Part shown: positions 8,854-26,791 of the stretch, one piece after another
How positions within the stretch are numbered: position 1 is the stretch's first letter
Layout: each line of letters opens with the position of its first letter
Source: a virus
Direction: 5' to 3' (one strand)
IMG/VR virus record: IMGVR_UViG_3300017706_001340
Location: 23,770 to 87,769 of that record
DNA length: 64,000 nt
Made by a program: the position numbers and the translations under genes
Notes under the pieces: model-generated
What the model was told of the DNA's origin: nothing
Database searches by the model: none
What the model saw: only the letters and a program-made list of their open reading frames with translations

Positions 8854-10664
8854 AATATGTTGATTTTAAGCGAGTTGAGATAAAAAACTTTTTGAGTGTT
8901 GGTGAGTCACCTGTTGTGATAGAGTTCAACAAGGGTTTGAACATCATAACAGGTAACAACAAAGATAAGCTCGACAGAAGAAATGGTGTTGGTAAGAGTA
9001 CTGTTGCTGACAGTGTGTATTTTGCTATTTTCGGTAGCACACTTAGAGAGTTGAAGAAAGATCACATTGTCAATAACATAACTCAACGAAATTGTTCAAT
9101 TGAGCTAGATTTCAATATAAACACAGATGGTGTTATTAGCGAATATAAGATATCACGCAGATTGAGCCCCACTAAGTGTAATTTGTATAAGGATGGTGAG
9201 GATATAACTCGTGACACCATACAGAATACCACTCAATATGTACAGGAGTTGTTAAACACTACACCTGAAGTGTTTCAGAACTGTGTGATCATGACTATAA
9301 ACAACACTGTACCGTTTATGGCCAAGAAAAAGCTTGAGAAACGGAAGTTTATCGAAGGTATCTTCAACTTACAGGTATTCAGCAACATGTTGACAGATGT
9401 AAGGGCAGAGTACAACAAGGTTAACAAGGATTTAGATATTGAGTGTGCTAGATATGAAGAAATATCAAACACACTGAGCAATCAGCAGAAGCAACAGTCA
9501 GATGCCGAGCAAGACATCATTCGTAACAAACAAAAACTGGTTCTCCGGAAAGCGAATTGTGAAAAGGATATAAAATCAATAGAATTGGAAATTGATGATG
9601 TATCGCCAATAAACACAGATGATATAACCGAGAAGATCAACAAGATAGACAGTATCATACCTAAAGCAGAAGCAAAGATGCAAGAATTGATAGGTACAGA
9701 GAGTAAACTATCTGCGATGGTTGAGGTTAACAAAACCAAACGATCAAAAATAAGTGATGAACACACAACATGCCCGACATGCTTACATAAACTTGATACT
9801 GAACATAAACATTTAATAAGGGAGGAAAAAGAACGTATAACAGATCAAATAGCAACATATCAAGAAGCTAGAGAGAAGGTGGCCGCTGAACTTAAAGAAT
9901 CAGTTGAGTTGAAGTCAAAGTTAACGACCGGGAGAAGAGAGTTAACAAGCAAATTACAACAAGCTCAGATCGAGAGACACAAACATAAGAATTTGAGAGA
10001 TCAACTTAGCAATCTACAATCTCAGATGAGTGATATTGATGATGATATCAAGTCAGTTGATAAAAATAGCGTGAGCTATGATAAAATGTTGAGTGACACA
10101 TCTGACCGGCTTGATAAGACACAAGTTGATATAGATCGAATAAAAACAGAACTAGCAAAGCTAGAGATAATTAAGTTTATTGTCAGTGAGGAGGGTGTCA
10201 AGTCGTATATCGTCAAGAAAATACTACAACTGTTCAATTCCAAGTTGGCGTATTATCTCAAGAGGATGGACAGTAACTGTATTTGTGTGTTCAATGAATA
10301 TTTTGAGGATGAAATTGTTGATGAAAAAGGCAAACCTTGCTCGTACTTCAACTTCAGTGGAGCTGAAAGAAAAAATATCGACCTGGCTTGCTTGTTCGCG
10401 TTTATGGACATAAGAAGATTGCAAGGTGATGTTGCGTTCAATTTCAGCATGTATGATGAGTTGTTTGATAGTAGTTTAGATGAACGAGGTGTAGAGCTCG
10501 TTATTGAGATTTTAAAGGAGCGAATAGATTCATTCAATGAATGTATCATGGTGATAAGTCACCGTAAAGAAAGTACCAAGCTGGCCACCGGTGAGGTTAT
10601 ATTTCTTGAGAAGCAAAACGGTGTGACGACACGAGTTGAAACACCAGAAAGTGAACTTAAATAA
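8850..10664 (+). CDS. gp46: gp46 SbcC/Rad50-like ATPase subunit
   Basis: 604 residues (T4 gp46 is 560). Walker A RRNGVGKST is near residue 47, preceded by a short insertion. A long coiled coil follows, interrupted near residue 306 by the zinc hook CPTC. The ABC signature FSGAERKNIDLA is near residue 500 and Walker B MYDELFDSSLD near 535. It pairs with gp47 in end resection. The operon context (uvsY, uvsW, 55, 47, 46) brings together the recombination-dependent replication functions and late sigma. Confidence 0.95.
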   Translation: MKYVDFKRVEIKNFLSVGESPVVIEFNKGLNIITGNNKDKLDRRNGVGKSTVADSVYFAIFGSTLRELKKDHIVNNITQRNCSIELDFNINTDGVISEYKISRRLSPTKCNLYKDGEDITRDTIQNTTQYVQELLNTTPEVFQNCVIMTINNTVPFMAKKKLEKRKFIEGIFNLQVFSNMLTDVRAEYNKVNKDLDIECARYEEISNTLSNQQKQQSDAEQDIIRNKQKLVLRKANCEKDIKSIELEIDDVSPINTDDITEKINKIDSIIPKAEAKMQELIGTESKLSAMVEVNKTKRSKISDEHTTCPTCLHKLDTEHKHLIREEKERITDQIATYQEAREKVAAELKESVELKSKLTTGRRELTSKLQQAQIERHKHKNLRDQLSNLQSQMSDIDDDIKSVDKNSVSYDKMLSDTSDRLDKTQVDIDRIKTELAKLEIIKFIVSEEGVKSYIVKKILQLFNSKLAYYLKRMDSNCICVFNEYFEDEIVDEKGKPCSYFNFSGAERKNIDLACLFAFMDIRRLQGDVAFNFSMYDELFDSSLDERGVELVIEILKERIDSFNECIMVISHRKESTKLATGEVIFLEKQNGVTTRVETPESELK

Positions 10665-10668
10665 AAAT

Positions 10669-11919
10669 ATGCGAACACAAATACCAAATGCATCTGTTAT
10701 AGGTCTGAACACTGTGCAAGGTACAGTGATAGGATCCAAACAAAATCAACCAACCTCTCCGATAGGTAAAAGACCTCAGAGTAATCGTATAACACCCCAA
10801 ACTAGACCGCGAGAAACTCAGATGCCTCGAGGTTTGAATTACTATGCTGATTTTAGTGGTTGTGGATTTTGGCGGATGTTGTGGCCAGAGCACACATTGA
10901 ATGCATATCAGAAGGCGGTCATTCATGGTAGTACGGTGATGGTGACTGATGAGAAATATTATACTAACGTCAAGTGTGTACGTATACAGCGCCAAGCAAC
11001 ACCCAGTCAAATGAAGTTTGTCAAGTATCTCAAGCAGTTGGGTGACAAGATGAACTTCAATGTTGTGTACGAGATTGATGATATTGTGTTTCATGAAGAC
11101 ATTCCAGATTACAACAAATTCAAAGGTGCGTTTGTTGATGATGATATAAGAAAGGCCACCACTAGTATGATGCAGATGTGTGATGAGATCACTGTCACGT
11201 GTGATTATATGAAGCAGTATTATATCGACAAAACTGGTAACAAGAATGTTAGTATAATACCTAATTATCCACCTAGATATTGGTTGGATCAATATGATGA
11301 ACAAATGACTGAGAAAAATTTCAGTAAAAGAAAGAAAAAACCTCGGGTATTGTATGCAGGTAGTGGCGCACACTTTGATGTTGACAATTTAGCTGGTCAA
11401 CGTGATGATTTTTATCATGTGGTTGAAACAGTCAAAAAGACAATCAACAAATATCAATGGGTGTTCATTGGTGCATTCCCAGTTGGTTTGAGATCACTGG
11501 TACAGCAGGGCAAGATAGAGTTTTATCCATGGACGTCACTGTATGATTATCCGAGATTAGTTAAGAAGATTCGCCCTAATGTGATGGTAGCACCGTTAAT
11601 CGATAATATATTCAATAGATCCAAGAGTGATCTAAAGTTTGTTGAGGGTTGTGCGTTGGGTGTACCAGCAATTTGTCAGGATATGTGCACATATGAAAAT
11701 GCACACTATAAATTCAATACAGGTGATGAGATGGTTGATCAGATAGACAATCTGATGAAAGATAAATCGATGTACATGAAAGCAGTGCGTCGCGGTCGGA
11801 TGGAAGCAGAACTCAGATGGTTAGAACATCCAGATAATCTACAAAAATATGTAGAGTTATACACATTACCGTATGGTCATAAGGACCGTGTGCAATTGAA
11901 CAAGCTAAATGGTTGCTAG
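10669..11919 (+). CDS. Glycosyltransferase, GT4/GT1-like (GT-B)
   Basis: 416 residues. ADFSGCGFWR lies at the substrate-binding N-terminal domain; VVYEIDDIVF, SIIPNYPP and the VLYAGSG strand starting the second Rossmann domain are typical of GT-B fold family 1/4 transferases, with a late KFVEGCALGVPAICQD segment equivalent to the E-x7-E donor-binding motif. The acceptor is unknown: virion protein, modified DNA base or host surface are all possible. The start at 10669 follows gp46 after 4 bases. Similar enzymes occur in marine T4-like phages. Confidence 0.8.
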   Translation: MRTQIPNASVIGLNTVQGTVIGSKQNQPTSPIGKRPQSNRITPQTRPRETQMPRGLNYYADFSGCGFWRMLWPEHTLNAYQKAVIHGSTVMVTDEKYYTNVKCVRIQRQATPSQMKFVKYLKQLGDKMNFNVVYEIDDIVFHEDIPDYNKFKGAFVDDDIRKATTSMMQMCDEITVTCDYMKQYYIDKTGNKNVSIIPNYPPRYWLDQYDEQMTEKNFSKRKKKPRVLYAGSGAHFDVDNLAGQRDDFYHVVETVKKTINKYQWVFIGAFPVGLRSLVQQGKIEFYPWTSLYDYPRLVKKIRPNVMVAPLIDNIFNRSKSDLKFVEGCALGVPAICQDMCTYENAHYKFNTGDEMVDQIDNLMKDKSMYMKAVRRGRMEAELRWLEHPDNLQKYVELYTLPYGHKDRVQLNKLNGC

Positions 11920-12267
11920 TATAGCAACTATGTTAATTTTTGTACCTTTAGAGTGTTTAAGTTTTAAAAATTGTTTCTTGTTTACCCACTTGTAATTTTT
12001 ATGTTCATTAGACAGATTCACCTTGAGTATCTTGGGTGTAGCTACAAACAACTCAAAATCATTTTGTCTTATTAATGTCTTGAGTTTTGCGATTTTGATA
12101 CCAGTTTCTTCAAAAACCTCTCGCTTCGCACCTTGTGTGAAATTTTCACCGACATTCAAGTGTCCACCCGGTAATTCCCAGCCATCACCGTTGATACGTT
12201 CGAGCATTAAGCACTTGTCTCTCCATAACATAATAACTTTTGCAACTTTATTGGTATCTACACTCAT
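11905..12267 (-). CDS. NUDIX hydrolase
   Basis: 120 residues. The NUDIX box is complete: G-x5-E-x7-REVFEETGI, beginning GHLNVGENF. Such enzymes hydrolyse nucleoside diphosphates linked to another moiety (for example dNTP derivatives, ADP-ribose, capped RNA). T4 NudE is a possible counterpart, but the substrate cannot be predicted. It converges with the glycosyltransferase, overlapping by 15 bases, and diverges from gp43. A late-like octamer ACTAAATA (12276-12283) lies 8 bases before the ATG. Confidence 0.9.
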   Translation of the reverse strand: MSVDTNKVAKVIMLWRDKCLMLERINGDGWELPGGHLNVGENFTQGAKREVFEETGIKIAKLKTLIRQNDFELFVATPKILKVNLSNEHKNYKWVNKKQFLKLKHSKGTKINIVAILATI

Positions 12268-12275
12268 ATGTCAAG

Positions 12276-12283
12276 TATTTAGT
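12276..12283 (-). promoter_or_regulatory. Possible late promoter of the NUDIX gene (ACTAAATA)
   Basis: ACTAAATA on the minus strand, 8 bases before the ATG at 12267. It differs from the T4 consensus at the first two positions and abuts the -35 element of the divergent gp43 promoter. Confidence 0.35.
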
Positions 12284-12311
12284 TGACTAAAATGACAATA
12301 ACAAGTATAAT
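12283..12311 (+). promoter_or_regulatory. Sigma-70 promoter of gp43
   Basis: TTGACT (12283-12288), a 17-base spacer and TATAAT (12306-12311). Only 6 bases separate the -10 box from the ATG at 12318, so the transcript probably starts at or within a base or two of the initiation codon. Confidence 0.75.
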
Positions 12312-12317
12312 ATAGCT

Positions 12318-14882
12318 ATGTACAGAAACGTTTGCTACAATCCTAGAGATGAAACAGTAACCCTATTTACTTGGGATGATAATGGAACACGTATCGCGGT
12401 CGATATGAGTTACAACCCGTACATCTATACAGAGACAACACTCAAAAGTGACGCTCAGAGTATATTCGAAACACCACTACGTAAGAAATTATTCAAAGAT
12501 ACGAGACATAGAAACAATTATATAAAGGAATGTGGAACCAACAGAGTTTTTGAGAACATCCGACCAGAACAACAGTTTCTGATAGATACATTCTGGAAGA
12601 AAAATGAGGAATTAGAATTCACACAACATCCACTCAAAATACATTATATAGATATTGAGGTTTATTGTCCGGATGTTTTTCCAACACCTGATGAAGCTGC
12701 ACAACCGATAAACATCATAACTGTGTATGATTCTATAGATAAGCGCTTCTACACTTGGGGTACCAGTCGATTGGAAAAGAATATTAAGGATTGTGATTAT
12801 GTGTTTTGTCAAACGGAGCAACAACTGCTGGAGTGTTATCTGAATTATGTGTGTAGATCACAACCAGATATTATATCCGGATGGAACAGTGAGGGTTTTG
12901 ATATACCTTATATTGTTAATCGATGTGTACGCATTTTAGGTGAGGATAGTATCAAGAAATTGAGTCCAGTGGAGAATATATACAGTAGAATGATGACTGG
13001 AGCCTTCGGTAAGGAACAGCAACGGTGGTATATAAGTGGTGTGTCGTGCGTTGATTACCTGGATATTTACAAGAAATTTAGTATTGGGTTGAGAGAAAGT
13101 TACAAGTTAGATGCAATAGCAGAACTAGAGTTAGGTTCCCGGAAGGTTGATTATGGTAACACAAATTTAAGCTCATTAGCTGATGAGGATTGGCAGACCT
13201 TTGTTGAGTATAACATACAGGATGTAAATCTACTTGTTGAGCTGGAGGATAAATTACGCTACCTTGAATTGCTTCGCATGTTAGCATATACAGGTTTAAC
13301 CACAATTGAAAGTGCCATGGGTACTTTGAGTGTGATAACCGGTGCCACTGTTATCAAGGCTCGGAGTAAGGACCTTGTTGTACCAACCTTCATAAAGGAC
13401 AATTCCAATGCAGCTAAGTATGAAGGAGCATATGTGGGTGAACCTCAACGTGGTTTTCAACATGCAGTTATAAGTTTTGATGCGAACAGCTTGTATCCTA
13501 ACACGATGATAAGTCTCAATTTAAGTCCAGAGACAAAAGTCGGTAGAATAACTCACAAGGATGACGAGTTTGTTTATCTTAAGCATGTCACCGGGAAGGA
13601 TTTTAAATTAACACATCAAGGATTTATGGATTTTGTGAGAAAGGAAGATATCGCCATATCCAAAGCTAAAATATTATTCACACAAAAGAAAAAAGGTATC
13701 ATGCCTGAGATCGTCGATGGTATCTATCAACAACGCGTTGAAGTGAAGAAGACACTCAAGAAACTGTTGATACAATTATCAAAAATGAGCTCAGAAGATC
13801 CGGATCGATCCGCCATACAGCGGCAGGCTGATCAATTAGACATAAAACAGTTCACATTAAAGATCTTGATCAATACTGTTTACGGTTATTTTGGTAACAA
13901 ACATGCTCCGATTGGTGATCCTGATATAGCACGTAGTATCACGTTGACAGGTCAAGCTGTTATCAAAAAATCTAACGATATCTTACGGGATTACGTTAAT
14001 ATTCACGGTTCACCTGGAGCTGACCCAGTTATATACAATGATACAGACAGTAGTTACATTTCTATTGATAGAATAATGGACAAGATAGGAGATGACTTTA
14101 GTACTGATGGTATTATTGCGAAATCTGCATATGAACAAGCACAATCAGTTGAGGATCACTTAAATGAAGAGATAACCAAATGGAGTGCCACTGCTTTGAA
14201 TAGTAAGGATAGTAGATTTGTGTTCAAGCGTGAATGTATGAGTGATGTCGGTGTGTTTCTACAGAAAAAACGCTACGTGCTACATGTTTTAGATGATGAG
14301 GGTATTCCTGTAAATAAATACAAGTATACAGGAGTAGAAGTTGTCAGGAGCACGATTCCTGCGCCTGTTAAACCGTATATCAAGAAGATAATCGAGACAA
14401 TGATGTCAACAGAGAGTAGATCAGAGACCAATGATGTATTTTTGAAAGCATATGACACATTCAAATCATTACCTATAGAGGATTATTCTTTTGTGATGGG
14501 TATATCAGATTATGATAAATATGCAACTCGATGTAACGGGTTTGTTACTGCAAAGGGCATGCCAGCACATGTAAAGGCTGCATATCACTACAATATGTTA
14601 CTAGAGAAGATAGGGTTATCAGGTTTATATGAAGCAATTGACACCGGTGATAAAGTTAGATACTTTTATGTAAATCAACCAAACAAGTACGGTATAAAAG
14701 CAGTCGCATACAAATATTATTATCCAGATGAATTCAAGAAGATATTTGAACCGGACAAAGAAAAGATGTTTGAAAAAATCATATACAGTATCATCGAGAG
14801 GTTCTATGAATCAGTGAAATGGAAGCTAAACAAACCGAGTGCACAGGTACAGACAGATTTATTCGATCTATTAGGCGTTTAA
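12318..14882 (+). CDS. gp43: DNA polymerase gp43 (family B)
   Basis: 854 residues (T4 gp43 is 898). Exonuclease motifs: YIDIEVY near residue 111, GWNSEGFDIPYI near 190 and YNIQDVNLLVEL near 300. Polymerase motifs: A, SFDANSLYPN near 387; B, ILINTVYGYFGNK near 516; C, YNDTDSS near 573. All catalytic Asp are present, so it should be a proofreading replicase. The C-terminal LFDLLGV is a clamp-binding (PIP-like) peptide for gp45. It is transcribed from a strong sigma-70 promoter with no room for a Shine-Dalgarno. Confidence 0.97.
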   Translation: MYRNVCYNPRDETVTLFTWDDNGTRIAVDMSYNPYIYTETTLKSDAQSIFETPLRKKLFKDTRHRNNYIKECGTNRVFENIRPEQQFLIDTFWKKNEELEFTQHPLKIHYIDIEVYCPDVFPTPDEAAQPINIITVYDSIDKRFYTWGTSRLEKNIKDCDYVFCQTEQQLLECYLNYVCRSQPDIISGWNSEGFDIPYIVNRCVRILGEDSIKKLSPVENIYSRMMTGAFGKEQQRWYISGVSCVDYLDIYKKFSIGLRESYKLDAIAELELGSRKVDYGNTNLSSLADEDWQTFVEYNIQDVNLLVELEDKLRYLELLRMLAYTGLTTIESAMGTLSVITGATVIKARSKDLVVPTFIKDNSNAAKYEGAYVGEPQRGFQHAVISFDANSLYPNTMISLNLSPETKVGRITHKDDEFVYLKHVTGKDFKLTHQGFMDFVRKEDIAISKAKILFTQKKKGIMPEIVDGIYQQRVEVKKTLKKLLIQLSKMSSEDPDRSAIQRQADQLDIKQFTLKILINTVYGYFGNKHAPIGDPDIARSITLTGQAVIKKSNDILRDYVNIHGSPGADPVIYNDTDSSYISIDRIMDKIGDDFSTDGIIAKSAYEQAQSVEDHLNEEITKWSATALNSKDSRFVFKRECMSDVGVFLQKKRYVLHVLDDEGIPVNKYKYTGVEVVRSTIPAPVKPYIKKIIETMMSTESRSETNDVFLKAYDTFKSLPIEDYSFVMGISDYDKYATRCNGFVTAKGMPAHVKAAYHYNMLLEKIGLSGLYEAIDTGDKVRYFYVNQPNKYGIKAVAYKYYYPDEFKKIFEPDKEKMFEKIIYSIIERFYESVKWKLNKPSAQVQTDLFDLLGV

Positions 14883-14920
14883 CAGTAGATTTCAGTAACA
14901 AAATAGTATATCATAACAAT

Positions 14921-15301
14921 ATGGACAAAATAATAACATTCGTAGATAATGTAGGTCGTGTAATCGTCGGTCAAAAAGTAAAGTCTAAGGACACTAGTAT
15001 ATGGAGTATCAAAGAACCTGCAGTAGTTAACGTGCAAGTCAGTCAAGAGAACGGTCAAATTTCTGTTCAACTACTACCATTTGTATTCAGGGAGTTCATT
15101 TCAGCAGAAGCGCGAGAAGCGGGTGTTGTTTGGGACTTCAACAAGAATAACATAGTCACAAGTAATAACTTAGTACTTGATGATAACATTAAAACCCAAT
15201 ATGAAAACATATTCACAAAGCCAGTTGCTGTTGCACAGAAGCAACCAGCCCCGGCTCCGGTTGAACCAGAAGTTGTAAAGTTATTTGATGACGAAGATTG
15301 A
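14921..15301 (+). CDS. Small conserved protein between gp43 and UvsX
   Basis: 126 residues. A beta-rich N-terminal part (VDNVGRVIVGQKVK) is followed by a Pro/Ala/Gln linker (APAPVEPE) and an acidic C-terminal tip (LFDDED), which resembles tails used for protein-protein contacts on single-strand-binding or clamp complexes. No family recognised. The start at 14921 is the first ATG after gp43; an upstream extension overlaps the gp43 end and is out of character. It overlaps UvsX by 14 bases. Confidence 0.7.
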   Translation: MDKIITFVDNVGRVIVGQKVKSKDTSIWSIKEPAVVNVQVSQENGQISVQLLPFVFREFISAEAREAGVVWDFNKNNIVTSNNLVLDDNIKTQYENIFTKPVAVAQKQPAPAPVEPEVVKLFDDED

Positions 15302-16373
15302 TAAAGATGTTCTCAAAGTTTTCGAAAAGCTCGAGAAACTAAATCCAGAAGCGAAATTTCTATCTGAAAGTGCACTAAGCACAGTAAGTGATTATGTTGA
15401 CACAGGATGTATGGTGTTGAATGCTATCATTTCCGGTAGTTTGTATGGAGGTGTACCTATGGGTCGTATCACAGGTTTCAGTGGACCTAGTGCCGCGGGA
15501 AAAACATACATTATAAACAAGATACTAGCTAATGGTCAGAAGAAGGGTATGATACCCGTGATATTTGATACTGAAGCTGCTGTTGATGCTAGTAGTACAG
15601 TAGGTGTGGGTTTAGATAACGAACAAGTCAAATATGTGCCTGTTCAGACAGTAGAGGATTGTAGGAATCAAATATCTGCTTTCTTGGACGGTGTGATCGA
15701 TACTAAGATGAGAGATAAATTCATCATCAGTATTGACAGTCTCGGGAACCTTGCAAGTCAAAAAGAGATTGATGATGCCGAGAAAGGCAAAACAGCAATG
15801 GACATGGGAACAAGAGCCAAAGGTCTCAAGAGTATGATGAGATTACTAACATTCAAAGCAGCTCAAGCTGGTGTCACTATATTATTTAGTAATCATACAT
15901 ATGATGACCCAAGCGCCATGTTCCCTACGCTCGTCAAGGCACAGAGTGGCGGTAAAGGTCCAGTGTATCTCGCAAGTGTACTTGTACAACTCGCTAAGCG
16001 TGATGAAAAGCATGATGCTAACAGAGGTGATTCGGATGAATTGCTACCAGAAGCCAATAAAGTTAGTGGAACAACATTACGTGCACTGACGGTCAAGAAT
16101 CGATTTGTACCGCCATTCCTAGAATGTGAGGCGTATCTAAACTTCCGTAAAGGTCTTGATAAATACAGCGGACTTAAGGAGATGGCTGTAAATCATGGAG
16201 TGATAATTCAGACTGGTAGTACATTCACCATGCCAGAATCAAAAGAAGGTGCACCTGGTAAAAAGTTAGGGTATTACAAGAACTGGAAGAGTGATGAATC
16301 ACTATGGGAAGAGTATATACTTCCGGAGTTAGAAAAAAAGCTCAAGGCGCAATATAGCTATAGTGTGGATTAA
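15288..16373 (+). CDS. uvsX: UvsX recombinase (RecA-like)
   Basis: 361 residues (T4 UvsX is 391). Walker A GPSAAGKTY lies near residue 66, Walker B FIISIDSLGNLAS near residue 145, and the DNA-binding loop L1/L2 region includes SNHTYDDP and KAQSGGKGPVY. It catalyses strand exchange on gp32-coated DNA with UvsY. The first frame codon TTG at 15285 is ignored in favour of ATG 15288. It converges with the leftward repeat-bearing gene, overlapping by 4 bases. Confidence 0.95.
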   Translation: MTKIDKDVLKVFEKLEKLNPEAKFLSESALSTVSDYVDTGCMVLNAIISGSLYGGVPMGRITGFSGPSAAGKTYIINKILANGQKKGMIPVIFDTEAAVDASSTVGVGLDNEQVKYVPVQTVEDCRNQISAFLDGVIDTKMRDKFIISIDSLGNLASQKEIDDAEKGKTAMDMGTRAKGLKSMMRLLTFKAAQAGVTILFSNHTYDDPSAMFPTLVKAQSGGKGPVYLASVLVQLAKRDEKHDANRGDSDELLPEANKVSGTTLRALTVKNRFVPPFLECEAYLNFRKGLDKYSGLKEMAVNHGVIIQTGSTFTMPESKEGAPGKKLGYYKNWKSDESLWEEYILPELEKKLKAQYSYSVD

Positions 16374-17902
16374 ATTGGTGTTTCAGCACTACTTAAATAC
16401 CGTCTAAAAGCTTGTTCATAGCCACGACTACCGGGTCTCATCTGCATTTTGTCGCGAGGTGATAAGGATTTCTCAAATTCATCTCTATGATACTCGTCCG
16501 CACCACTTCTCTGAAACATTGTCTCCTCTTGATCTGGGTTGTATGGTAACTCTTGTTCGGGTGGTGTTGCAGTAACTGTATCATCCGGAGTTTCTGGAGC
16601 GACTTCCGGAGGAGCGGTCACTGGCGCGGTAGTTGCGTTTGAATCTTGTGGTGGTACGCTTTGTGGATCAACCTCAGGGTTAGTGACAGCAGCTTCACCG
16701 CCACCCATCATTGCCTCGGCACCTCCAGCTAATGCCCCTGCTCCAGCGGCCATCGCACCGGTTTTACCAGCTTGGTTCAAGCCACCCATGACTCTGTCTC
16801 CGATTCCACCTTGTGTAGTTGCGGCACCCTTGACAAAACCAATCCCGGCACCGGCTATGCCAGTTTTTAATGCTGGTAATGCGATAGCTGCAGTTGCTGG
16901 GTTGGTCATCATCAAACCTAAGACACCAATAGCAACTGCGCCTGTTAAAATGCCTTTGTTATTTTTCAAAAAGCTCCATATTTTCCCTAATACACCTTGA
17001 CCTCCTTGAATAGCGTTCGGGTCAATTGGTGTAACATCTGCATCCGGTGTAGCTTGTGGTGGTCCACTCGTTGTTGGAACATCCGATGCAGGTGCTTCTG
17101 GTGCAGGTGCTTCTGGTGCAGGTGCTTCTGGTGCAGGTGCTTCTGGTGCAGGTGCTTCTGGTGCAGGTGTGGCTTGTGATTGTGTGGCCTGTGATTGTGC
17201 TTTTACAAAATTCTGAAACCTTTTGTTTATCTTGTATAGTTGTGGAAACACTTCTCCCTTGCTACCACCTGGAGCACTTTTAGCAAGCTGATCTATTTGC
17301 TTTGCTATTGTTTTATTCTCATTGATGGAATCTGACACTGGCATCCATGGACATTCGTCTGGCTGGTTCGCTTCACTAAAAAGTGTATTTATTGTGTTAG
17401 TATAGTATCTCTCTTGTATCACTTGTGAGTGTTGTGATGTAATCAAACCTGTATCAACAAGAGCTTCACAAATCATGTCATTCATTTGGAATTGATATGT
17501 ATATGCCTCTGCCGCAGTTCCGGCTTCCGTACCTGTTGGTGTTGATTGGATTTGTTGTTGTACACTCGGATCACCTTCAGTTTGAGCTAGTGCAGCAATC
17601 GCCTCTGGTCCCTGATCCACAGCACCTGCAACTTTTTGTGCTGCAGCCGGATCCTTCGCAAGTGCACCAACCAACATATCGATCACTGGTTTGAGTAGTT
17701 TCTGAGCCGCGAAATTTTTAACTTTACCAAATGCACCCTTGACACCATCCATCAATCCTTCGTTCATTAAAAATTGCTCTATATACTTGAGATCCGCTTC
17801 CAGTAAGTCCTCCATCTTATACTTGATTTTATGATCAACTCTGTTTTGAAGGCTCTCCCAGATCAGATCATTATCACTTGTATTGTATTTTTTTCTGTAC
17901 AT
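16370..17902 (-). CDS. Probable virion protein with PAPEA repeats and hydrophobic centre
   Basis: 510 residues. In order: a charged helical N-terminus (about 1-60), a helical Ala/Gln-rich section, five tandem EAPAP-type pentapeptides near residues 245-270, a hydrophobic Gly/Ala-rich stretch near 310-400 with one likely membrane segment (GAVAIGVLGLMM), and a Pro/acidic tail ending in charged residues. It looks like a structural or ejected protein rather than an enzyme. The start at 17902 is chosen over one 21 bases upstream because a late octamer CATAAATA at 17908-17915 lies 5 bases before it. No family recognised. Confidence 0.75.
   Translation of the reverse strand: MYRKKYNTSDNDLIWESLQNRVDHKIKYKMEDLLEADLKYIEQFLMNEGLMDGVKGAFGKVKNFAAQKLLKPVIDMLVGALAKDPAAAQKVAGAVDQGPEAIAALAQTEGDPSVQQQIQSTPTGTEAGTAAEAYTYQFQMNDMICEALVDTGLITSQHSQVIQERYYTNTINTLFSEANQPDECPWMPVSDSINENKTIAKQIDQLAKSAPGGSKGEVFPQLYKINKRFQNFVKAQSQATQSQATPAPEAPAPEAPAPEAPAPEAPAPEAPASDVPTTSGPPQATPDADVTPIDPNAIQGGQGVLGKIWSFLKNNKGILTGAVAIGVLGLMMTNPATAAIALPALKTGIAGAGIGFVKGAATTQGGIGDRVMGGLNQAGKTGAMAAGAGALAGGAEAMMGGGEAAVTNPEVDPQSVPPQDSNATTAPVTAPPEVAPETPDDTVTATPPEQELPYNPDQEETMFQRSGADEYHRDEFEKSLSPRDKMQMRPGSRGYEQAFRRYLSSAETPI
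17088..17162 (-). repeat. Five tandem 15-bp repeats encoding EAPAP units
   Basis: Five identical 15-base units (starting at 17088, 17103, 17118, 17133 and 17148; unit GCAGGTGCTTCTGGT on the plus strand), followed by a diverged sixth. In the leftward gene they encode a Pro-Ala-Glu-rich linker. Such perfect arrays change copy number easily. Confidence 0.95.
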
Positions 17903-17907
17903 ACATT

Positions 17908-17915
17908 TATTTATG
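17908..17915 (-). promoter_or_regulatory. T4-type late promoter (CATAAATA)
   Basis: CATAAATA on the minus strand, 5 bases before ATG 17902. It overlaps the -35 region of the divergent queC promoter. Confidence 0.65.
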
Positions 17916-17944
17916 TTGGACATTTCTATTTTATATAGTATAAT
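17916..17944 (+). promoter_or_regulatory. Sigma-70 promoter of queC
   Basis: TTGGAC (17916-17921), a 17-base spacer and TATAAT (17939-17944). The preferred ATG is at 17954, 9 bases after the -10 box, leaving a leader of about 2-3 bases. Confidence 0.7.
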
Positions 17945-17953
17945 ATGTGTTAT

Positions 17954-18667
17954 ATGGAAAAGTGTATTGTACCGATCAGTGGAGGTTTAGACTCAACAAC
18001 CATCTTATACATGGCCAAAGCAAGAAACATGCAAATACATGCAGTTAGTTTCAATTACGGTCAACGACACATGGACAGTGAATTAGCGTGTGCACAACAT
18101 CATGTGAATAAAGTGGGTGTGGAGAGTTGGAAAGTTCTAGATATCACCTTCTTCAAGGAAATTGCAAACACGAGCTCATTGACAAATAGCGATATAGATG
18201 TTGCTGATGCACGTGATGTTGTGGGTGATCCTCAGACAGTTAATTATGTCCCAAACCGCAACATGATGATGTTGAGTATATGTGCTGCATATGCTGAAAG
18301 TCTTCAAGCTGAAACTGTGTTTCACGGAGCTGCTCTTGTTGATAGCCAGGCTGGTTTCTGGGATGGTAGTGTAGAGTTCTTAGAGTATATAAACAATCTA
18401 CTGTCCTTGAATCGCCGAGATCGAGTCAAGGTGGAGTGTCCTTTGATTGAGCTATCTAAAGAGCAAATTATACACAAGGCTGTGTCACTTGGAGTTGATG
18501 TCTCTAAAACATGGACGTGTTACAGAGGTGGCGAACGACCATGTGGTTATTGTACGGCTTGTAGTTCTCGTATCGCTGGATTCATGTCTGCTGGCTATAT
18601 AGATCCATTGGATTATCAGAGAACAGACATACCATGGAGTGGTCAGCAACCAATATCAGCACTATAG
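17954..18667 (+). CDS. queC: QueC, 7-cyano-7-deazaguanine (preQ0) synthase
   Basis: 237 residues. The PP-loop PISGGLDSTT binds ATP near the N-terminus; FNYGQRH and PNRNMMM are conserved QueC segments; the C-terminal zinc site is TWTCYRGGERPCGYCTAC. QueC converts carboxy-deazaguanine to preQ0. In phages this pathway can feed 7-deazaguanine modification of DNA. The other synthesis genes (FolE, QueD, QueE) and the DNA transglycosylase DpdA are not in this window. An in-frame ATG at 17945 lies immediately after the -10 box, so 17954 is preferred. Confidence 0.95.
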   Translation: MEKCIVPISGGLDSTTILYMAKARNMQIHAVSFNYGQRHMDSELACAQHHVNKVGVESWKVLDITFFKEIANTSSLTNSDIDVADARDVVGDPQTVNYVPNRNMMMLSICAAYAESLQAETVFHGAALVDSQAGFWDGSVEFLEYINNLLSLNRRDRVKVECPLIELSKEQIIHKAVSLGVDVSKTWTCYRGGERPCGYCTACSSRIAGFMSAGYIDPLDYQRTDIPWSGQQPISAL

Positions 18668-18670
18668 TAT

Positions 18671-19396
18671 ATGTGTGGTATATTTGGTAGTTTCAACTTC
18701 CGGCGGTTCGAACAGCTGTACGAAGCAAACCGGAAGCGTGGTGACTTTGCGGTTGGTACGATGTATATAACTAAAAATGCATCCCCAGGTATGGCGAAAA
18801 ATACCTGGTTGAGAAAGAAGCAAGGTATAGTTGATCTCACTAGTCATTATTCTTTTAAGAATGATTACGATCAATACCTGGGTCACACACAAGCACCAAC
18901 AAGTATTAACCGTGAATTTAGTCCGGAGACAACACATCCATTTGATAGTATACATTATCAAGTAGCACATAACGGTGTACTGAGCAACCATAAGCAGCTT
19001 GGAGAGGATCTACTAGACGCGTGGTGGAGGGACGATTGTGTTGATAGTGAGATCATACCAGGATTATTATCCGTCAATGTTGAGTTTGATGAAGATATCA
19101 TATTGAGCTATCAAAATGATACCGGAAAAACTGAGGATGTGTTGACAGTTGAGAAAACATGCAGCATGCTGAAGGGTACATTTGGTTTGTGGGTGTACAG
19201 TAAACTAACAGGTGATACATTTATCGTTCGCAACGGTTGCACGTTATTTGGAAACATTGAATCTGGTGATTTTAGTAGTGTGCCTATCGCTGGTATTTGT
19301 GAAGAACCTCTGAAGGAAGGTGTAGTGTACTGCGTGACATGTGAAGGGTTAACAGAGTGTGGAGAGTTCGAATCAAGTAGTCCATTTTTTTTATGA
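18671..19396 (+). CDS. Class II glutamine amidotransferase
   Basis: 241 residues. The Met-Cys N-terminus (MCGIFGSF) puts the nucleophilic Cys at position 2. YLGHTQAPT and VAHNGVLSNH provide the conserved Ntn-amidotransferase glutamine-binding and oxyanion residues. No synthetase domain is attached, so it must donate ammonia to a partner. Lying 3 bases after queC, the pair resembles a split version of Gat-QueC, the fusion that converts preQ0 to archaeosine-type (G+) bases in archaeal tRNA and, in some phages, DNA. The partnership is inferred from adjacency. Confidence 0.85.
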   Translation: MCGIFGSFNFRRFEQLYEANRKRGDFAVGTMYITKNASPGMAKNTWLRKKQGIVDLTSHYSFKNDYDQYLGHTQAPTSINREFSPETTHPFDSIHYQVAHNGVLSNHKQLGEDLLDAWWRDDCVDSEIIPGLLSVNVEFDEDIILSYQNDTGKTEDVLTVEKTCSMLKGTFGLWVYSKLTGDTFIVRNGCTLFGNIESGDFSSVPIAGICEEPLKEGVVYCVTCEGLTECGEFESSSPFFL

Positions 19397-20076
19397 ATAA
19401 GAACAAGAAAATTTTAATTGTAACATGCTCGAAAGATGACGGTAAAAAGTCACAGCTAGTCCAATCACTAGATGCAATACGAGATGACATATCATTAATA
19501 ATAAACGCAAACAACAAGGCAGGATTGTCAGAAACTTACAACAGACAGCTAAAGCCGGAAAATCTCATAAAGCATGACATTGTGTTATTTGTACATGATG
19601 ATGTGTTCATTGATGATGTCAAGCTAAGAGGTAAATTGTATGTAGCGATGGAGTCATTAAAGTATGATATTGTAGGTCTAGCTGGTGCTAGTAAGATGAA
19701 GATAGGAAACCCGGCGTTATGGCATCAAATGTCGCCCCGGGAATCATGGAGCGGTGCCGTGTCACACCCTGTAGGTGATAAGCAATTGAATATAACTAGT
19801 TTCGGACCATGGCCAGCAAGATGTTTAGTATTGGACGGATTGTTTCTTGCAGTCAACTTGGCGAGAGTATTGGAGATTGGATGGAGATTTAACGAAGATT
19901 ATAAATATCATCATTATGATATAGCTAGTTGTTTAGATGCGAACAAAGTTAAGCTCAAGATGGGAACATATCCAATCAATGTGACTCACAGCAGCCCCGG
20001 ACTGAGAGACATCAACGACGAATCATTCCAAAGATCACAACAAACATTTATACGTAATTATTCAGATGTCAGTTAA
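19393..20076 (+). CDS. GT2-like (GT-A) glycosyltransferase
   Basis: 227 residues. LSETYNRQL and VLFVHDDVFIDD (DxD-like metal site near residue 75), GLAGASK, and the later HHYDIASCLDANK match small GT-A enzymes of the Glyco_tranf_2_5 type. The acceptor is unknown. ATGA overlap with the amidotransferase and an 11-base overlap with gp41 place it in one translational unit with queC; a role in further modifying a deazaguanine base is possible but speculative. It could equally decorate a virion protein. Confidence 0.75.
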   Translation: MNKNKKILIVTCSKDDGKKSQLVQSLDAIRDDISLIINANNKAGLSETYNRQLKPENLIKHDIVLFVHDDVFIDDVKLRGKLYVAMESLKYDIVGLAGASKMKIGNPALWHQMSPRESWSGAVSHPVGDKQLNITSFGPWPARCLVLDGLFLAVNLARVLEIGWRFNEDYKYHHYDIASCLDANKVKLKMGTYPINVTHSSPGLRDINDESFQRSQQTFIRNYSDVS

Positions 20077-21427: not shown

Positions 21428-22327
21428 GTGAAAAAGATAGCTGTATTTACTGATTGCGACCTGGATGGACTTAGCTGTATGTCTGTTTTCCGATGGTTTA
21501 CAAACACAAAGATGGATCACCAGATATGTTCTCAATCCAACTTCAGAAAAACATTTACCCGATGGTGTCAGAGAAATCGACCAGAGACGTTTGATAAGAT
21601 TTACATCTTTGATCTTGATGTGTCACAATCTAATATTGACCTTGTTGATCATCATAATTTCACTATAATAGATCACCATGACACACATGTGGCTAACAAG
21701 GATAAGTATAAAAATGCAAGTGTGATATTGAAGGACTATAGTAGTTGTTGTAAGCTGATATATCACCTCATGGTCAAGAAGTATCCAGATAAAGTTTTAG
21801 ATGATACTCAACGATTATTAGTTCTACTAGCAGATGATTATGATAGTTATGAGTTGAAATTAAAAGACTCGTATAGTCTGAATGTGATTGTGTGGAATTA
21901 TGTTGGAGATAGAGCAGAACAATTTCAACGAGATTTTGGTGACGGATTCAAGGGATTTAACGAATCACACTTGAACATGATACACTTGAACAACAAACAG
22001 GTCAATCGCATATTGTCGGAGCTTGAGATATACAGTGGAGAGATACCTATAAATGGTAGAATGTATAAAATATATGCCACGATGGCAGACAAGAGTCTGA
22101 ACGAGGTAGCACACCATGTAATCAACAGCTATGATTGTGAGATTTGTTTGGTGATGAATTTGAGAACAAAAAGGGTTAGCTTCAGAAAGAATAAAGAAAA
22201 AATTCCAGACCTGGATTTAGGTAAGCTGGCTCAAAACATTGCAGAAGGTGGAGGTCATGTACATTCATCCGGAGGGCAAATAACAGATAATATTTTAACA
22301 GTAACAAAAATGTTACAACCAGTATAA
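21428..22327 (+). CDS. DHH-family phosphoesterase (RecJ/NrnA-like)
   Basis: 299 residues with a GTG start. TDCDLDGLS (motif I), IFDLDVS (motif II), DHHNFTIIDHHDTH (motif III, DHH) and LADDYDSYE (motif IV) bind two metals; the C-terminal GGGHVHSSGG is the DHHA1 substrate-binding signature. The family includes RecJ exonuclease, nanoRNases and cyclic-dinucleotide phosphodiesterases. The size and lack of an OB domain favour an oligonucleotide or dinucleotide phosphodiesterase rather than full RecJ. Its position in the replication cluster suggests nucleic acid processing; a role against host cyclic-nucleotide signalling is an alternative. Confidence 0.88.
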   Translation: MKKIAVFTDCDLDGLSCMSVFRWFTNTKMDHQICSQSNFRKTFTRWCQRNRPETFDKIYIFDLDVSQSNIDLVDHHNFTIIDHHDTHVANKDKYKNASVILKDYSSCCKLIYHLMVKKYPDKVLDDTQRLLVLLADDYDSYELKLKDSYSLNVIVWNYVGDRAEQFQRDFGDGFKGFNESHLNMIHLNNKQVNRILSELEIYSGEIPINGRMYKIYATMADKSLNEVAHHVINSYDCEICLVMNLRTKRVSFRKNKEKIPDLDLGKLAQNIAEGGGHVHSSGGQITDNILTVTKMLQPV

Positions 22328-22638
22328 TGGCATCTTATATTAAAGGTTCAATCTCTCAAACAGATCCTGTTGAGGTAGCGTATGAAAATGAGTATGTACA
22401 TTTGTTCTTAAGCTTTTGCTCGTATGTATGTATTGTTAAAAATAAGAAGTTAAACCTACCTAACATATTTTTGTGTCTGTTGAGAGAACCGGAGTTGAGA
22501 GATATATTCAAGATGCTCGTCGATGTGGAGACTGATTATGATGTGCTGAAGTGTTTTCTTGATCATGACCCGACCTTACATCGCTCAAAATATATTCGCA
22601 ATTTCTTGATACAAAATCCGACTCTAAATGTTAAATGA
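22327..22638 (+). CDS. Hypothetical protein, 103 aa
   Basis: 103 residues, helical, Leu/Cys-rich in the centre (FLSFCSYVCIV), no recognised family. Coupled to the DHH gene by TAATG overlap and to the next gene by ATGA. Its position between helicase and gp32 suggests a replication accessory, but nothing in the sequence proves it. Confidence 0.65.
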   Translation: MASYIKGSISQTDPVEVAYENEYVHLFLSFCSYVCIVKNKKLNLPNIFLCLLREPELRDIFKMLVDVETDYDVLKCFLDHDPTLHRSKYIRNFLIQNPTLNVK

Positions 22639-22976
22639 CAGAATTAGAGAAGAGAATATATAACTGTTGGTTAGCGACTACGAGATCAAAAACAAACAAA
22701 CCATTTAAGCTGCGTAAAAAGTGGGATGGTTTTGAGGATAAGATTGAATACAATTATGTAAAAAAAGTTGCATCTATACTTAAGAGATACGATAATATTA
22801 ATATTGATGATTGGTTCAACGCACCTTATGACTTATACCCTGAACAACATGTTGCATACGACTTGCAATTTTACAGCACTATGAAAGCATTCGCATGCTA
22901 CAGAATCAACAAACAAAAAACAGAAAAACTAACACACGACGAATTCTATAAAACGATTAAAAAAACAAGTTGCTAA
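22635..22976 (+). CDS. Conserved phage hypothetical protein, 113 aa
   Basis: 113 residues, basic and aromatic-rich (IYNCWLATTRS, FNAPYDLYPEQH, FACYRI). The pattern recalls a small protein found beside gp32 and helicase genes of marine T4-like phages, function unknown. It overlaps the preceding gene by 4 bases. A role in loading helicase or primase would fit the place, but it is much smaller than gp59. Confidence 0.65.
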   Translation: MTELEKRIYNCWLATTRSKTNKPFKLRKKWDGFEDKIEYNYVKKVASILKRYDNINIDDWFNAPYDLYPEQHVAYDLQFYSTMKAFACYRINKQKTEKLTHDEFYKTIKKTSC

Positions 22977-25891: not shown

Positions 25892-26791
25892 ATGAAAATA
25901 TTGATATTAGGTAAAGGGTATGTAGGAACTGCCCTGGCAAAAAACTTATCTACATGTTACGAAATCGTACATGTATCACGTTCCGAACTAGACTATACTG
26001 ATAGAGGTACACTCTTCAGATATTTAACCGGTAACGACATCGAGTATATTATAAATACATGCGGTTACACTGGGAGACCCAATGTAGACGCCTGTGAAGA
26101 CAATACCAGTGATACCTGGCATTATAATGTTGTTGTACCTGTTAATATACAGAAGACGTGTAAGGATGCAGGTGTAAAAATGATACACATATCAAGTGGA
26201 TGTATCTATGACGGATACGCAAAGGATTACACTGAAGAGGATGAACCAAATTTTGGGTTACATAGTAATGACAGTAGCTGGTATAGTAAGACTAAGCATG
26301 CATGTGAGATGATGATGAAGGATAAAGATGTGTATATTTTCCGTATCCGCATGCCGTTTTGTGAGTCTTGGTCAGAGAGGAACGTACTAACAAAATTAAT
26401 AAAATATGATAATGTTATTGATCATTTAAACTCTGTCACAAATATAGAAGATCTCTGTGGATTTATAATGTATTTTATTGCTGATATAACCGAGGGTACA
26501 ATAGTTCATGAGTATGGTATTTACAATGTTGTGAATCCTTGTCCTGTAACAACAAGTGCTATTTGTGACCTTTTAAATACAACAGAATTGGGTAATAAAA
26601 ACTGGCAGCATATCGAGTTAGAGGAACTATATAAGACAACCAAAGCGAAACGTTCGAATTGTATACTCAGTGACGATAAAATTAAAAATTTAAACTTGAG
26701 ACTACCTGATACAATCGATAGCTTGAGACGATGCATTAAAAAGATGAAACAAGAGTTAGATGCTCAAGAGAATAACAAAGCTACTGGCTAG
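25892..26791 (+). CDS. dTDP-4-dehydrorhamnose reductase-like SDR protein
   Basis: 299 residues. N-terminal Rossmann motif LGKGYVGTALA, ISSGCIYDG, and the catalytic YSKTKH (YxxxK) are typical of extended short-chain dehydrogenases of the RmlD/epimerase group. It probably reduces or epimerises a nucleotide sugar using NAD(P)H. No other dTDP-rhamnose gene is visible, but two glycosyltransferases are encoded in the window and could use its product. It lies 3 bases after the preceding gene and overlaps the next by 32. Confidence 0.85.
   Translation: MKILILGKGYVGTALAKNLSTCYEIVHVSRSELDYTDRGTLFRYLTGNDIEYIINTCGYTGRPNVDACEDNTSDTWHYNVVVPVNIQKTCKDAGVKMIHISSGCIYDGYAKDYTEEDEPNFGLHSNDSSWYSKTKHACEMMMKDKDVYIFRIRMPFCESWSERNVLTKLIKYDNVIDHLNSVTNIEDLCGFIMYFIADITEGTIVHEYGIYNVVNPCPVTTSAICDLLNTTELGNKNWQHIELEELYKTTKAKRSNCILSDDKIKNLNLRLPDTIDSLRRCIKKMKQELDAQENNKATG

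Follow-up and report, generated by a model that had tools for sequence, protein, structure and literature searches.

A queC-amidotransferase-glycosyltransferase gene module and a putative glutamine-fed preQ0 synthase in an uncultured marine-type phage

Phages shield their DNA from host restriction by replacing guanine with 7-deazaguanine derivatives. Bacterial QueC, the preQ0 synthase of the 7-deazaguanine pathway, works on free ammonium, while GMP, NAD, and asparagine synthetases, which belong to the same ATP-pyrophosphatase superfamily, work with glutaminase partners. In archaea and in phage 9g, a class II glutamine amidotransferase (GAT) domain is fused to QueC (Gat-QueC), and dG+ has been shown as a product only for this fused form. 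A QueC-GAT pair made of separate genes is already present in Schizotequatrovirus/Mylasvirus phages, the KVP40-type Vibrio phages among them (KVP40.0124-0125, exsB-ORF392 of nt-1, and 6E35.1a), in which a separate class II GAT of ~202 aa with the motif H-x-Q-A-P-T comes immediately after QueC in a preQ0 pathway. These phages encode DpdA2 near the pair and have no glycosyltransferase (GT) gene there, and their GAT is annotated as hypothetical or as a nucleophile aminohydrolase. The nt-1-type GAT was found in 51 cultured-phage records (49 of Vibrio and 2 of Pseudomonas phages), and it was located directly 3' of queC in the records read. In 6E35.1a DNA, 15% of dG carried a modification whose mass fits dPreQ1 (PMC12028318), and nt-1 DNA contained mainly dPreQ0 with a little dG+ and dADG (PMC6884629).

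The window analyzed here is a stretch of 64,000 nucleotides, corresponding to bases 23770-87769 of a linear, 87,769-base IMG/VR virus record. T4-type replication and virion genes (DNA polymerase B, UvsX/RecA-like protein, replicative helicase, SbcCD, primase, clamp loader, terminase, baseplate hub, and tail tube) were found in the window, and its source phage is marine-type. The 87.8-kb record probably covers only part of a larger myovirus genome. The features discussed are collected in Table 1.

Table 1. Coordinates of the features in the window, in the rest of its record, and in two uncultured relatives (G004 and G012).
Feature	Position	Strand	Evidence
queC, 7-cyano-7-deazaguanine (preQ0) synthase	window 17954..18667	+	TIGR00364 178.6 bits; PF06508 4e-57; phrog_1550 3.6e-58
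Predicted stand-alone class II glutamine amidotransferase (GAT), Cys2	window 18671..19396	+	profile against PDB; AlphaFold/Foldseek; invariant residues
Predicted GT-A family glycosyltransferase, third gene of the module	window 19393..20076	+	PF13712 31.2 bits; AlphaFold fold match
QueE	record 19244-18450 (outside the window, same contig)		1e-14
QueD	record 19840-19232 (outside the window, same contig)		3.5e-8
FolE2	record 21889-22929 (outside the window, same contig)		275.6 bits against 215
P-loop kinase (AAA_28/deoxynucleoside-kinase-like), beside QueE	record 17712-18416	-	
Second glycosyltransferase	window 10636-11919		phrog_7162, 1.3e-27
RmlD-like dTDP-sugar reductase homologue	window 25892-26791		
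Low-complexity gene with a repeated PAPEA stretch	window 16370-17923	-	
Run of sugar-related genes upstream of the window	record 9129-16500	-	translations judged by eye
DpdA3, Formyl_trans_N, kinase, QueF cluster	G004 L086:16541-19414; G012 L196:13907-18303		
IMP dehydrogenase/GMP reductase family gene within the DpdA3-formyltransferase-QueF cluster	G012 L196:15354-16337		

The queC product comprises 237 aa, and an alternative in-frame ATG at 17945 would add three residues. Its TIGR00364 score exceeds the curated cut-off of 150.3 bits, and both the SGGLDS P-loop and the zinc cysteine cluster CxxxxxxxCGYCTAC are present, identifying the protein as QueC. The next gene starts 3 bases past the queC stop codon and encodes a protein of 241 aa with the N-terminus Met-Cys-Gly. 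Single-family models matched it weakly (Pfam GATase_6, 1.5e-4, below the cut-off; GlmS, 1.6e-7). A profile of 22 GAT relatives compared with the PDB retrieved the GlmS glutaminase domain (1.7e-14) and PurF (4e-10). The AlphaFold model (pLDDT 91) was also matched by Foldseek to the GlmS glutaminase domain, which was the best match among solved structures in both sequence and fold. Cys2, H100-N101-G102, and Asp125 were invariant across the 22 relatives. With a cysteine after the initiator methionine, the HNG motif, the catalytic-site aspartate, and a modeled Ntn fold, the protein is predicted to be a class II glutamine amidotransferase, and the initial annotation, which had described queC, a 3-base gap, and a stand-alone class II GAT with Cys2, was correct on these points.

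The window GAT differs from GlmS in having no isomerase domain and in a residue of the glutamine site. Arg73 of GlmS binds the alpha-carboxylate of glutamine, and the matching residue is Gln74 in the window GAT and Gln in 20 of the 22 relatives; glutaminase activity is therefore not assured. The arginine is retained in the relatives at loci L039 and L040, where the neighboring genes differ and queC, GAT, and GT are still found together. The GATs of the Schizotequatrovirus and Mylasvirus phages (phrog_12378) are homologous to the window GAT and only distantly similar to it.

The third gene shares 4 bases with the 3' end of the GAT gene, including the stop codon, and is part of the queC-GAT unit. 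Its product passed the PF13712 cut-off of 27 bits, and its AlphaFold model (pLDDT 94) had majastridin in complex with UDP as the best fold match (E 2e-12); it is thus predicted to be a GT-A glycosyltransferase. Other candidate sugar genes were also observed. The second glycosyltransferase gene adjoins the SbcCD and DNA polymerase genes and was kept in all longer relatives examined, and the RmlD-like gene lies within the replication gene block and has RmlD-like counterparts in most relatives. The minus-strand run upstream of the window, composed of cytidylyl-/nucleotidyltransferase-like, GT2-/GT25-like, and aldolase-like genes, suggests a phage-encoded glycan pathway. The low-complexity gene, located between the UvsX-like gene and queC, is fast evolving and was present only in some relatives.

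FolE2, QueD, and QueE were found just upstream of the window on the same contig. QueE and QueD scored below the NCBI curated cut-offs, but their matches were essentially only to QueE- and QueD-type models. The set for preQ0 synthesis (FolE2, QueD, QueE, and QueC) is thus predicted to be complete on the 87.8-kb contig, and the co-occurrence of these genes makes a phage-encoded 7-deazaguanine pathway well supported, as had been expected from the initial annotation, which placed DpdA and the other pathway genes beyond the window or in the host. Kinases related to the AAA_28 P-loop protein recur beside QueE or DpdA3 in relatives and in phages CP220 and immuto.

The dpdA gene, sought together with folE, queD, and queE in the rest of the genome, was the part of this set that was not recovered. 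No member of DpdA1, DpdA2, or DpdA3 was found on the fragment with the respective models, and DpdA3 was found in two relatives. QueF was likewise not seen on the fragment, and neither DpdA nor QueF was seen in the 98-kb close relative G001. The silence of PF01702 (TGT) on the contig has no weight as the model also failed to detect the known DpdA of phage 9g. Comparison of all long ORFs with small DpdA1 and DpdA2 alignments using hhalign gave no match, and this test was insensitive because DpdA1 and DpdA2 scored only 0.4% against each other; it placed the DpdA3 of G004, recognized later, first at 12.7%. Two further kinds of candidate were rejected: genes that separate QueC from GAT in other contigs, which, where read, looked like virion genes or a dCMP deaminase gene, and a weak DpdA2-like match in L038, which falls in a short ORF between the UvsX-like gene and virion-like genes and was regarded as chance.

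Relatives of the window GAT were encoded in 439 matched stretches of IMG/VR, of which 76 distinct GATs were read for their neighborhood. In 27 distinct uncultured loci the sequence reached 4.5 kb or more upstream of GAT, and QueC was located upstream in all 27; the adjacency is therefore not due to chance. In 72 distinct uncultured loci the sequence extended 2 kb or more downstream of GAT, and in all 72 GT was directly or closely 3' of GAT, mostly overlapping it. The queC-GAT-GT trio was present in dozens of related uncultured phages, while no match to the GT gene was found among 50,697 cultured-phage records, and the three-gene module is considered new because it was absent from the cultured-phage records and the literature searched. 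The 32 further QueC loci that were read (L041-L072) all lacked a GAT. A single-sequence search with the window GAT retrieved nothing from viral contigs or cultured phages, the family being reached only by alignment. A cellular origin of GAT was rejected, as a scan of GTDB genomes returned mostly GlmS-type proteins of ~600 aa and none with QueC nearby.

QueF was encoded alongside QueC-GAT in KVP40, 6E35.1a, 2.275.O, and pf16 and likewise on the long contigs of two uncultured relatives, G004 (218 kb) and G012 (140 kb). The QueF family of these phages occurred in 46 Vibrio and 2 Pseudomonas records, a count made independently of the GAT records. In G004 and G012, the trio was accompanied by a DpdA3-formyltransferase-kinase-QueF cluster. 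This cluster predicts a formylated preQ1 in DNA, in line with the 2023 literature and with record annotations. Its gene order in G004 is the same as in Flavobacterium phage immuto, and Campylobacter phage CP220 has a DpdA3 of the same family as G004 and G012; no window-type GAT was observed in the CP220 record or in those stretches of immuto that were read. The cluster is absent from the contig of the window as far as the contig reaches.

The initial annotation interpreted the pair as a Gat-QueC cut in two that makes preQ0 or G+. The window pair does resemble the fused protein in tying a class II GAT to QueC, functionally or physically, in a 7-deazaguanine pathway, but in the window the two are separate ORFs with a stop codon between them. 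With one split-GAT profile, E. coli GlmS scored 57 bits and PurF 43 bits, whereas the Gat domains of five Gat-QueC proteins, all from phages, scored 15-38 bits; with a similar GAT profile, cellular GlmS-type proteins scored 46-79 bits. The GAT thus scores closer to GlmS and PurF than to the Gat domains of phage Gat-QueC. Where GlmS, PurF, and the fused Gat domains share an arginine, the window GAT has glutamine in the motif QAPT; the fused form has RAEPT with an extra Glu. In a QueC tree built without archaeal Gat-QueC, the QueCs with a separate GAT formed one clade (97/96) and the fused ones formed another (100/100). A direct split from Gat-QueC is not favored by these sequence comparisons, although the tree did not reject it.

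A true split Gat-QueC would be expected to add ammonia to the preQ0 nitrile group, whether the base is free or part of DNA, giving G+ and phage DNA with 2'-deoxyarchaeosine like that of phage 9g. Its plausibility comes from the class II GAT beside QueC, which functionally resembles the Gat-QueC domain order, and from hhalign, which relates the split GATs and the fused Gat domains at 98.5%. A QueC tree constrained to join the fused clade and the uncultured split clade cost 10 log units and was not rejected (p-AU 0.128), QueF was seen neither on the fragment nor on G001, and traces of dG+ were reported in nt-1 (PMC6884629). Against these points stand the greater proximity of GAT to GlmS and PurF with the altered motif, the co-occurrence of QueF with the QueC-GAT pair in most genomes, and the measured products, which were dPreQ1 or mainly dPreQ0; we therefore regard a true split as unlikely. 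Of the two products named in the initial annotation, preQ0 fits the pathway genes, while G+ is less likely as the pair usually occurs with QueF and the products measured are dPreQ1 or mainly dPreQ0.

We consider it probable that QueC and GAT are the two subunits of a preQ0 synthase fed by glutamine, and that this enzyme serves a 7-deazaguanine DNA-modification pathway encoded by the phage. FolE2, QueD, and QueE would produce 7-carboxy-7-deazaguanine (CDG), GAT would release ammonia from glutamine next to QueC, and QueC would use the ammonia and ATP to convert CDG into the amide and then into preQ0. A DNA transglycosylase would then insert preQ0 or a derivative into phage DNA, blocking restriction. 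This enzyme would be DpdA2 or DpdA3 in the relatives, and in the phage of the window it is presumably encoded in the part of the genome that the record does not cover. The sequences establish the genes, their families, and their strict linkage; ammonia feeding, complex formation, and DNA insertion in this phage are inferred. Where QueF reduces preQ0 to preQ1, a G+ synthase would be unneeded and an ammonia source for QueC would be useful. GAT would stay with QueC whatever the later chemistry because a glutaminase would feed ammonia to QueC.

The trio with its DpdA3, formyltransferase, kinase, and QueF cluster in G004 and G012 counts for the glutamine-fed synthase, as do the GAT-less state of the other QueC loci and the single clade of GAT-paired QueCs. 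Neither the QueF co-occurrence nor the published products suggest that the pair usually makes G+, the co-encoded genes being the strongest clue. On the other side, a glutaminase is not strictly required because bacterial QueC uses free ammonium, no DpdA was found on the contig of the window, and QueC and GAT are 0.6-3 kb apart in many contigs while GAT and GT remain together. Phage nt-1 also counts against the synthase: it carries the pair and has a little dG+ (PMC6884629), and the stretches read contained no QueF and a DUF5591 gene, which is probably the ArcS homologue named in the same study. A comparable division of labor is seen in GMP synthetase (GMPS) with a separate GATase, NAD synthetase, and asparagine synthetase B, all of which combine an ATP-pyrophosphatase domain with a glutaminase. 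The separate GATase of archaeal GMPS is encoded by a neighboring gene in some archaea (PMC13329287); unlike the window GAT, the GMPS GATase is class I, and the substrate differs.

The spacing of the genes can also be read as a sign that GAT is the partner of GT and that the two perform a side-chain tailoring step, e.g., on a deazaguanine base or a sugar, with QueC as a mere operon neighbor. GAT and GT are indeed more tightly linked than QueC and GAT, but KVP40-type phages have QueC-GAT without GT and QueC preceded GAT wherever the locus was long enough to tell, which makes this partnership improbable. Least probable is that the genes raise queuosine in host tRNA while the phage DNA is unmodified. 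The published grouping permits a tRNA role for phages without DpdA (PMC6884629), and none was found on the contig of the window; this contig, however, is an incomplete fragment, relatives with longer contigs have DpdA3, and the clusters of formyltransferase and DpdA3 are DNA-modification genes.

Ammonia feeding alone does not account for the tight GAT-GT link, which is the lead of greatest interest. The link allows, and does not show, a sugar-bearing deazaguanine. QueC with GAT would produce preQ0, QueF and formyltransferase may elaborate it, as in the clusters of the relatives, and GT would add a sugar to the side chain of the base. Such a glycosylated 7-deazaguanine in phage DNA is a tentative and rather doubtful reading of the trio, and to our knowledge no sugar-bearing 7-deazaguanine has been reported in DNA.

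The pathway itself is known, and the separate GAT is an overlooked, though not unique, partner of QueC. As it accompanies QueC in cultured Vibrio phages and in many uncultured ones and is unnamed in annotation, it suggests a glutamine-dependent preQ0 synthase, and a neighborhood of QueC plus Gat should not be taken as archaeosine. The GT, which is firmly linked to the pair in uncultured phages, offers a concrete lead towards a DNA base not yet described.
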